Source of the DNA: a bacterium
GTDB taxonomy: Bacteria > Patescibacteriota > Microgenomatia > Levybacterales > UBA12049
Reading direction: 5' to 3'
DNA: 35,776 nt
Assembly (NCBI GenBank): GCA_021813145.1
Contig: JAKALS010000003.1
Location: 70,114 to 105,889 of the forward strand
Part shown: piece by piece, positions 4,507 to 12,643 of the stretch
Layout: the number at the start of each line of letters is the position of its first letter
Numbering within the stretch: position 1 is the first letter of the stretch
Notes under the pieces: model-generated
Seen by the model: the letters and a program-made list of their open reading frames with translations, nothing else
What the model was told of the DNA's origin: nothing
Database searches by the model: none
Made by a program: the position numbers and the translations under genes

Positions 4507-5043
4507 ATGAGTGTATATACCAGATTCGGCGATAAAGGGAAAACTTCACTTTACGGGGGAAAAACAGTCTCCAAAGGAAGCCTGAGAATAGACGCCTACG
4601 GAAGCATAGACGAACTAAATAGCTGGATAGGAGTCGTTGCCGCCGAAGTGAAAGACACAAAAATAAAAAAAGAGCTTTTTGTTATCCAAAACGATTTATT
4701 CGAGATGGGAGCAAGTCTAGCAAATCCTTCCGAGAGCAAAAAATACGACTATTTTTCTAAAAGAGTAAAAGAATTTGAAAAGCAGATAGACGAATTAACA
4801 AAAAAACTTCCGCAGCTTTCCAACTTTATACTTCCGGGGGGGAAAAGGGCGGGTTCAAGGCTTCATGTTGCAAGAACAGTCTGCAGAAGGGCAGAAAGAA
4901 GAGTAGCGCAGCTGTCAGAAAAAGAAGAAGTAAATAAAGAAATTTTAGTTTACATAAACAGGCTCTCAGACTTGCTTTTTACCTTTGCCAGGTATATAAA
5001 TTACAAAGAAAAGAAAAAAGAAATCCTCTGGAAAACCAGATGA
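4507..5043 (+). CDS. Cob(I)yrinic acid a,c-diamide adenosyltransferase (PduO type)
   Basis: MSVYTRFGDKGKTSLYGGKTVSKGSLRIDAYGSIDELNSWIG...RTVCRRAERR. The longer ORF start at 4378 overlaps nrdJ and is unlikely. Confidence 0.93.
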   Translation: MSVYTRFGDKGKTSLYGGKTVSKGSLRIDAYGSIDELNSWIGVVAAEVKDTKIKKELFVIQNDLFEMGASLANPSESKKYDYFSKRVKEFEKQIDELTKKLPQLSNFILPGGKRAGSRLHVARTVCRRAERRVAQLSEKEEVNKEILVYINRLSDLLFTFARYINYKEKKKEILWKTR

Positions 5044-5192
5044 TTTCCGGGTGAATGAAGGCGTAATTCCTTCGCTGTGCCGCAACCGTATAGCCGGAAC
5101 CCCGTCATATCCGCCATCCGGCGGACTTCCGAGCAGAAGTGCATTTTTTGTGCAACTCCTCGGATACCCTAAGGGTAAAGAGGAGTTTTTTT
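5041..5192 (+). promoter_or_regulatory. Cobalamin riboswitch with downstream terminator/RBS expression platform
   Basis: ATTCCttcGCTGTGCCGCAACCGTatAGCCGGAaccCCGTC core. It is followed by a CCGCCatccGGCGG hairpin and the terminator AACTCCTCggaTACCCTaaGGGTAaaGAGGAGTTTTTTT (about 5154-5192) abutting the ATG at 5193. Confidence 0.85.
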
Positions 5193-9228: not shown

Positions 9229-9300
9229 GGGTCAGTAGCTCAGCGGTAGAGCGCTACTCTTATAAAGTAGATGTCCTTGGTCCGAGTCCAAGCTGACCCA
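9229..9300 (+). tRNA. tRNA-Ile, anticodon UAU (AUA-decoding)
   Basis: GGGTCAG TA GCTC-AGCGGTA-GAGC G CTACT-CTTATAA-AGTAG ATGTC CTTGG-TCCGAGT-CCAAG CTGACCC A. All four stems pair. CCA is not encoded. TATAAT lies at 9212-9217. Confidence 0.93.
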
Positions 9301-9339
9301 CAAGAAAAAACCGGTATCAAAAATCAGAGTTGTTTAGCT

Positions 9340-10206
9340 TTAGAGTTCGGTGAGGGGAGTTCCTTCTTTCGTCTTTCCTATATCGCCTACATACTGAAGA
9401 TATCTTTCCGTAGTTGAAAGTCTTTTATGTCCCAAAACTTTCGAAAGAACAACCAGGGAAACTCCGTGTTTTAAGTGGTGGGCTACAAATGTGTGCCTTA
9501 AGTCGTTGACCTTAGCGCCTTTTATTTCCGCAAGCCTGAAGTACCTTTCAACCGCTGTTCTTATATTTCTTATAAGGAAAGGTTTTCCGGATTTTGTTAC
9601 AAATAAATGGTCCTCGGATACATTAGGTCTTACTTTCATATAATTGCTCAAAGCTTCCTGGGCTCTTTTGTTAAGAGGGACAACTCTCTCTTCGTGTTTT
9701 TCAAAGCTTGCTATATGAAGACTATCTTTTTTAACATCGGAAATTCTAAGATTTGCCAATTCTCCTATTCTTATTCCTGTTTGAAGCAGCAACTCAATTA
9801 TGGCGTACATTCTAGGGTCGTTTCTCGCCGCGTCTCTTAAGGCTCTGTATTCCGTTGGGGTTAAAATTCTGGGCGGAGCAAGCTGATATTTGGGGTGGGC
9901 AACGAGAAGAGAAGGGTCATCGGTCACATATTCGTTGATCTTCAAAAACCTGTAAAAAGTTCTTGTAGAGTTTATTTTCCTCGAAATGGATTTGGGCGTA
10001 TAGCCTTCGTTACTCATTTTGGCCAAAAAAGCCTCTATGTCCTCTTTTGTTACTTCATGGACCTGGTTTCTTTGAAGTTCTTCCAGGAACGAGATTAACT
10101 GGTCTATGTCCTTTCCGTAGGCAATTACGGTAGAATTGGACCTGTTATTGGATTTTAAATATTTTTTAAACTCTTCGTGGGCATCTCTAAGTTTTACAGG
10201 TTTCAT
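9340..10206 (-). CDS. Tyrosine recombinase (XerC/XerD family)
   Basis: LLQTGIRIGELANLRISDV...LRHTFVAHHLKHGVSLVVLSKVLGHKRLSTTERYLQY (catalytic R..HxxR..H..Y). Confidence 0.92.
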   Translation of the reverse strand: MKPVKLRDAHEEFKKYLKSNNRSNSTVIAYGKDIDQLISFLEELQRNQVHEVTKEDIEAFLAKMSNEGYTPKSISRKINSTRTFYRFLKINEYVTDDPSLLVAHPKYQLAPPRILTPTEYRALRDAARNDPRMYAIIELLLQTGIRIGELANLRISDVKKDSLHIASFEKHEERVVPLNKRAQEALSNYMKVRPNVSEDHLFVTKSGKPFLIRNIRTAVERYFRLAEIKGAKVNDLRHTFVAHHLKHGVSLVVLSKVLGHKRLSTTERYLQYVGDIGKTKEGTPLTEL

Positions 10207-11856: not shown

Positions 11857-12114
11857 TTGCGGGGCTAGGAGTTGCGCCTAGCCTATGAGATTATGCGATC
11901 TGTTTCTCCGATTACTCAGAGTGTCGGACTATATTATTCCCCTCTTTATAGAGTAGGGGATCTGGCGTGTAGTCTCTACGGGATCTTTTTTTAGACTTCC
12001 CTCGGTGTTGCCCTAAAACTTGCAGGGGTTCACCGATATAGCCAGATTCTATTCTAATATTACTATTAAAACGGCCCATTATTAAGCCTCATGTGCACTG
12101 TACACTACCCCGCG
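11857..12114 (-). tRNA. Intron-containing initiator-type tRNA-Met (CAU). Exons: complement(12085..12114) and complement(11857..11895)
   Basis: Spliced product: CGCGGGG TA GTGTACAGTGCAC A TGAGG CTCATAA TCTCA TAGG CTAGG CGCAACT CCTAG CCCCGCA A. It has the C1/A72 mismatch, an anticodon loop CUCAUAA, and a minus-strand promoter TTGACC-17-TATAAT immediately upstream. Confidence 0.82.
11896..12084 (-). ncRNA. Group I intron (tRNA type, IC3-like), 189 nt
   Basis: P1 GGCU/GGCC with U.G at the 5' splice site. P2 TAATA-GUAA-TATTA. P3 ATCTGGC/GCCAGAT. P4 CGGTG/CACCG. P5 CCCT/AGGG. P6 GGGA/TCCC. P7 GACTA/TAGTC (GTAGAGACTACACGCC...ATATAGTCCGA). P8 CTCT-ATAA-AGAG. P9 CTCTGA-GUAA-TCGGAG. Terminal omega-G at 11896. 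Confidence 0.92.
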
Positions 12115-12123
12115 CGTACTTGA

Positions 12124-12152
12124 ATTATAACAGGATCGAAAGCTATGGTCAA
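12124..12152 (-). promoter_or_regulatory. Sigma70-type promoter for the intron-bearing tRNA
   Basis: Minus strand TTGACC-ATAGCTTTCGATCCTGT(17)-TATAAT, about 9 nt before the tRNA 5' end. Confidence 0.75.
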
Positions 12153-12558
12153 TAAAGTAGCCTTGACAAAAAAGCGAACATACAATATGGTACGAGTACT
12201 TAGCACTGTCGGTTATTCGTTTAGCAATTCAGATCCTTTAATAATTCAATTTTTTATCGCCTGGTTAAAAAAATACTTTTCAATAGAAACTAAGGATTTA
12301 CGTTGTTATATTGGAATTAATAAAATTCATTTAAATAGAGAGATGATAGTCAAACGTTATTGGTCGAACATTACGACTGTTCTTTTATCGCAATTCACAA
12401 AAATTAGCTATAAGAAATCTAAAAATAAAAAAGTTTACGAAAACTTTGATTCTCATTATGGAACTGCTACTATTAGAGTTCTGCAGCCTTCCAGATTTTA
12501 TGGTAAAATCATTGGGTTAATTAATGGTTTAGCTAACGCGAAAACTATGCCAACGTAG
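12145..12558 (+). CDS. LAGLIDADG-like (homing-endonuclease-fold) protein, tentative
   Basis: Pattern resembles LAGLIDADG-like small proteins: VLSTVGYSFSNSDPLIIQFFIAWLKKYFSIETKDLRCYIGINK...NREMIVKRYWSNITTVLLSQFTKISYKKS...YGTATIRVLQPSRFYGKIIGLINGL. Confidence 0.5.
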   Translation: MVNKVALTKKRTYNMVRVLSTVGYSFSNSDPLIIQFFIAWLKKYFSIETKDLRCYIGINKIHLNREMIVKRYWSNITTVLLSQFTKISYKKSKNKKVYENFDSHYGTATIRVLQPSRFYGKIIGLINGLANAKTMPT

Positions 12559-12620
12559 CTCAGGGGTAGAGCGGGCGTTTCATAAGCGCCATGTCGTAGG
12601 TCCGAATCCTACCGTTGGTA
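12549..12620 (+). tRNA. tRNA-Met, anticodon CAU, uninterrupted (probably elongator)
   Basis: GCCAACG TA GCTC-AGGGGTA-GAGC G GGCGT-TTCATAA-GCGCC ATGTC GTAGG-TCCGAAT-CCTAC CGTTGGT A. Canonical D- and T-loops. No encoded CCA. Confidence 0.92.
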
Positions 12621-12643
12621 CTTTCCCCCTAAATACCCCATAG

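Follow-up and report, generated by a model that had tools for sequence, protein, structure and literature searches.

Here, we report that the only initiator tRNA gene found in the genome of a bacterium of the Levybacterales (Patescibacteriota) is split by a small group I intron that has no ORF and is very probably spliced out to leave a divergent initiator tRNA specific to the lineage. As read from the joined exons, this predicted mature tRNA lacks the three consecutive G-C pairs of the initiator anticodon stem (3GC) and has an elbow built with A18 and G55.

The interrupted gene and its boundaries

The window, by which we mean the whole 35,776-nt stretch of DNA that was analysed, carries on its minus strand a tRNA(CAU) gene that is interrupted between U33 and C34 (Table 1). 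The Rfam group I model RF00028 (Intron_gpI) was matched over its whole length at 12094-11905, scoring 68 bits (E=2.9e-17) and so exceeding the curated cut-off of 50, which answers the check by covariance model that had been proposed in the initial annotation of this DNA. The choice of scan filter matters for this match: the intron was found with permissive filters and missed with the fast filter over the whole window. No long ORF is present in the intron, the longest being of 55 aa. Folding of the 258-nt precursor gave -85.9 kcal/mol, which is 4.9 standard deviations below shuffled sequences, and none of 200 shuffles was equally stable.

When the two exons are joined the exon sequence is restored exactly, and ARAGORN, another check proposed at the outset, recognized the product as a tRNA-Met(CAT) of 70 nt. 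The joined exons folded alone as a cloverleaf. An empty site is found in a genome of the same genus (G001, locus L117:101-170), where the uninterrupted gene has exactly the 70 nt that splicing is predicted to yield. Because of this identity the intron can be delimited to exactly 189 nt, 12084-11896, between U33 and C34, and the predicted splice sites are settled on comparative grounds by the intronless gene. The last base of the intron is a G (omega-G) directly before C34; this G, the length of 189 nt and the position of U33 opposite a G in P1 were all confirmed as they had originally been read.

Between the promoter-like site and the 5' end of the tRNA lie 9 nt, and CCA is absent from the encoded 3' exon. 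The neighbouring gene is an elongator-type tRNA-Met in divergent orientation, and the same divergent initiator and elongator pair is also present in L077, L083 and L088. Elsewhere in the window, an AdoCbl-II riboswitch (5037-5111, plus strand, 40.1 bits) lies downstream of two ORFs that were named from their translations, a large one that is ribonucleotide-reductase-like and one that is cobalamin adenosyltransferase-like. A tyrosine-recombinase ORF (9340-10206, minus strand) adjoins the 3' end of the tRNA-Ile(UAU) gene (together 9229-10206), and could be a housekeeping XerC/D-like gene.

Table 1. Features of the interrupted initiator tRNA gene and its surroundings, in window coordinates and in the order of the minus strand, followed by the divergent neighbour.
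Feature	Position	Strand	Evidence
Promoter-like site, TTGACC-17-TATAAT, TG before the -10	12124..12152	-	11/12 consensus matches; consensus match only
5' exon, tRNA positions 1-33, ends in U33	12085..12114	-	Empty-site comparison with L117; ARAGORN on joined exons
Group I intron, 189 nt, omega-G end	11896..12084	-	RF00028 match; covariation; ORF length
P1, GGCUUA/UGGGCC, U33-G wobble at 5' splice site	12073..12088	-	U-G in 30/30; P1 100% paired
P2, GUAA cap	12051..12072	-	Double changes in 9/9 pairs
P3 5' strand, pairs with 11960-11966	12041..12047	-	Double changes in 4/7 pairs; 1/7 not conserved
P4 5' strand, pairs with 12002-12007	12031..12036	-	100% paired, nearly invariant
P5	12011..12027	-	Double changes in 4/5 pairs
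P6	11980..12001	-	First two G-C pairs invariant
P7 (guanosine-binding helix), 5' strand GACUA, pairs with 11927-11931	11970..11974	-	Invariant in 30/30
P3 3' strand	11960..11966	-	Same 30-intron count
P8	11939..11959	-	Double changes in 7/7 pairs; 67% of cells paired
P7 3' strand UAGUC	11927..11931	-	Same 30-intron count
P9, GUAA cap	11906..11921	-	100% paired; double changes in 4/6 pairs
3' exon, C34 to A73	11857..11895	-	Direct reading; ARAGORN; L117 comparison
Elongator-type tRNA-Met(CAU), divergent neighbour	12549..12621	+	Rfam, ARAGORN; sole other CAU tRNA found in genome

Conservation of the intron fold

Thirty homologous introns, each with 10 nt of both exons, were aligned with MAFFT, and the 58 pairs of a hand-drawn P1-P9 structure were counted in the alignment. 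Paired cells amounted to 87.2%, compared with 79.1% when partners were shuffled and at most 46.1% in slid versions of the structure. The number of doubly changed cells was 190, against 74 in the shuffles and no more than 59 in the slid versions. Covariation across the 30 relatives thus supports the group I fold. Of the core originally proposed, P3, P4, P7 and P8 are present, as are P2 and P9, each with its GUAA loop; the outermost P3 pair (A-U) did not hold up, being paired in only one of the 30 relatives. As aligned, P6 and P8 show pairing in only 67-68% of their cells, for P6 with the loss in the outer pairs, and this probably reflects misalignment of variable tips. Of the elements that bear on a possible membership of subgroup IC3, which is marked by the peripheral contacts L2-P8 and L9-P5, the GUAA loops of P2 and P9 were observed. 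The AUG of the internal guide sequence is able to pair with the CAU of the exon as a possible P10.

Distribution and known relatives

Exactly one copy of the 5' exon pattern was found in 56 of 73 genomes of the family, and a reversed-pattern control gave 0 matches. In 25 of the 56 the gene carries the intron, while in 31 it is uninterrupted. When 85,462 species genomes were scanned for an initiator 5' exon with a directly adjoining intron-like start, 112 loci were found, on contigs whose titles include cyanobacteria, Omnitrophota, Chloroflexi, relatives of Rhodothermales and Lewinella, Planctomycetota and Shewanella, as well as Levy-, Davies-, Chisholm- and Uhrbacteria. Joining the exons at the same U33|C34 site gave a tRNA-fMet for 73 of the first 80 loci, whose introns measure 182-693 nt. 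The intron is accordingly of a known and widespread kind, the same site being interrupted in many phyla. A tree built from 74 introns places that of the window among 29 of the Levybacteria type, which form a clade with a support of 0.90 and to which those of the Chisholmbacteria type are nearest. The window intron had been expected to be among the smallest; this did not stand, and size as the main novelty was dropped, 189 nt being ordinary for a clade whose homologues measure 182-208 nt. Two loci, L223 on a contig titled Chlamydiae and L234 on one titled Paceibacterota, hold Levybacteria-like initiator genes with the intron, by misbinning or by transfer.

The compact, ORF-less group I intron of about 205 nt in the anticodon loop of Azoarcus tRNA-Ile(CAU) resembles the present one in compactness, lack of an ORF and location; its host tRNA is different and the intron described here has 189 nt. 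The host gene is shared with the cyanobacterial introns, and the contigs L157, L169, L181, L187 and L206 yield tRNA-fMet on joining at the same U33|C34. They differ in length (240-693 nt in the copies found here), some are described in the literature with an ORF, and they sit in a canonical host tRNA that has 3GC and normal loops, unlike that of the Levybacteria type. Synechocystis and Gloeobacter are known to carry introns in tRNA-fMet (PMC8450103), for which the works of Biniszkiewicz et al. (1994) and Paquin et al. (1997) are cited in PMC8450103 and PMC5733544. A preprint by Nakagawa et al. 2025, going by the title cited in PMC12641178, concerns group I introns in tRNA genes of Patescibacteria at a 'novel insertion site', that is, the same phylum and the same class of element. 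The window intron may be among their cases, and that insertion site may or may not match the one reported here.

Group I introns occur also in another tRNA of these bacteria. The tRNA-Asn gene of the host genome, G000 (L132 = G000:C6:1-2500, minus strand), also contains a group I intron, which has a coding sequence for an HNH-like protein and an apparent insertion site between U35 and U36; no other tRNA-Asn was found in the genome. In relatives, apparent tRNA-Asn(GUU) genes are interrupted by group I introns, for example at L049, L050, L055, L056 and L060.

A divergent initiator tRNA

The initial annotation had likened the spliced tRNA to a classical bacterial tRNA-fMet. In agreement with this, it shares with the canonical molecule the C1xA72 mismatch, the acceptor stem CGCGGGG/CCCCGCA and the loop CUCAUAA; in its anticodon stem, its D stem and its elbow, and by being short, it departs from it. 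A purine at position 11 facing a pyrimidine at 24 in the D stem is a feature of bacterial initiators. The pair is here U11-A24, in the elongator orientation (D stem GUGU/GCAC). Initiators are also described as having G-C at three consecutive positions of the anticodon stem, 29-41, 30-40 and 31-39 (PMC11497404). Of 55 canonical-type initiators in the genome scan, 43 kept all three, whereas the corresponding pairs are here A-U, G-C and G-U, and the same holds for 33 of the 34 distinct related ones. The D loop, ACAGU, has 5 nt and the T loop reads CGCAACU; in the elbow, A18/G55 replaces the canonical G18-U55, and G19-C56 is retained. A subset of the family initiators with an AAGG D loop (L088, L089, L104, L115 and others) has an apparent T loop of 6 nt, TTCGAT.

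The exchange at positions 18 and 55 is not confined to the initiator. Three of 45 tRNAs in the host genome have A18, namely the initiator, tRNA-His (C5:2804-2875) and tRNA-Tyr (C2:23083-23167), and exactly the same three have G55 (loops assigned by eye; Fisher p=7e-5, such p-values for 18/55 being inflated by shared ancestry). In the family, tRNA-His alternates between the two states even inside a genus, and among 30 sequences 13 have A18/G55 and 17 have G18 with U or C55, with zero exceptions. The 34 distinct initiators divide likewise into 14 with A18/G55 and 20 with G18 and U or C55, a count that includes one T-loop parse (G18/'G55') corrected by eye, most likely that of L109, which reads TTCGA. 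Across the family the two positions thus covary perfectly in the initiator and in tRNA-His, and the third species, tRNA-Tyr, for which a pattern search found four sequences, matches. Since three tRNA species have undergone the swap, at least three events are required.

Four other tRNAs of the host genome (Ile-UAU, Met, Pro-UGG and Val-CAC) have C55. No match to TruB_N (PF01509) was found in this 100%-complete genome, while all 14 control genomes were positive. Position 55 may therefore be free to change because TruB, the pseudouridine-55 enzyme, is absent, as judged from one genome. On balance we lean, by a small measure, towards a history in which the loss of TruB freed position 55 and positions 18 and 55 then changed together, so that in Levybacteria-type initiators, which are without 3GC, the G18-pseudouridine55 contact gave way to A18/G55 with G19-C56 kept, as in the tRNA-His and tRNA-Tyr of the host genome.

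The probable initiator of the genome and its proposed splicing

The host genome consists of 954 kb in six contigs, is 100% complete and has 43 tRNAs found by Rfam, among which the divergent neighbour at 12549, assigned by ARAGORN, is the one other tRNA with a CAU anticodon. With Rfam and ARAGORN, no other initiator tRNA was found in these 954 kb, and there is only a slight chance that a second one is hidden in a gap of the six-contig assembly. The interrupted gene combines the anticodon CAU with C1xA72, both features of initiators, and the same acceptor stem is present in undoubted initiators that carry introns at the same site. A peptide deformylase gene (def) is followed by one for methionyl-tRNA formyltransferase (fmt), whose match of 193.4 is just below the NCBIfam equivalog cut-off of 201.5. 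G1338 and A1339 of 16S rRNA and the KR tail of ribosomal protein S9, which inspect the initiator stem, are unchanged. Since the single other CAU tRNA is of the elongator type, and given the C1xA72 acceptor, def and fmt, the promoter-like site and the conserved divergent pair, the gene is very probably the sole initiator of the genome, with a predicted use in initiation. That a group I intron resides in an initiator-type tRNA, as first claimed, was borne out by the RF00028 match, the covariation in 30 relatives, the empty site and this argument from a sole copy.

From these comparisons we infer transcription of the gene, self-splicing of the intron, and formylation and use in initiation of the product. 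Standard two-step group I splicing would be the best explanation of the structure, on the basis of homology and fold. A precursor would be transcribed from the sigma-70-like promoter just upstream, and its intron would fold into P1-P9. Exogenous guanosine in P7 would attack after U33, held opposite G in P1, and the freed U33 would attack after the omega-G while P10 holds C34-A35-U36 on the internal guide, to produce the CUCAUAA loop. CCA would then be added, and the tRNA would be charged, formylated (C1xA72) and used to start translation.

Alternative explanations

Judged by textbook standards the 3GC stem is degenerate, as are the loops of both the D and the T arm, and even an intact homologue is invisible to the Rfam tRNA model, as might be expected if the two tRNA halves belonged to a pseudogene in decay, with the true initiator encoded elsewhere or otherwise supplied. 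Such decay is highly improbable, given that a complete genome was searched and no other initiator was found, that the gene is single-copy and strongly conserved in the family with compensating changes in the T stem, anticodon stem and elbow, and that an intact intronless copy is present in other genera. Still less credible is a tRNA-Ile2, in which CAU would be read as lysidine-AU: the anticodon would suit it and two of three classical initiator features are missing, but the acceptor stem with C1xA72 is that of a bacterial initiator and is identical in the undoubted initiators mentioned above, AUA is already served by the tRNA-Ile(UAU) at 9229, and the genome would be left without an initiator.

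The gene is hence best regarded as the probable initiator, and a more serious question concerns the autonomy of its intron. Protein helpers are required by some group I introns, and the small size and AT-rich P2 of this one would be compatible with an obligatory protein cofactor in vivo. The intron being real, such a dependence, or a role of splicing in regulating the supply of initiator, appears unlikely on the whole without being far-fetched; the core helices are retained in relatives, and the lack of the intron in the 31 family genomes with an uninterrupted gene argues against a regulatory need for it. Splicing by the intron itself is therefore the reading we prefer.

Implications for annotation and biology

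The intact initiator gene of G001, which has no intron, escaped the Rfam tRNA model even at E=1; that of L115 was also missed, and the G18/U55 relative L129 was found with 41.5 bits. ARAGORN found most of the intact copies and missed L131. Such genomes therefore appear to be initiator-less because of the intron and, separately, because of the divergent tRNA, which explains the apparent lack of an initiator under standard models.

Through the patchy occurrence of the intron within one family, the same tRNA is available in matched forms with and without it. It is also seen once more that an essential single-copy gene, here the only initiator found, can depend on an RNA element. The tRNA nevertheless matters more than the intron, in that it does without both the 3GC pairs associated with start-site selection and the G18-U55 contact linked to the fold of nearly all tRNAs, and yet is conserved with compensating changes.
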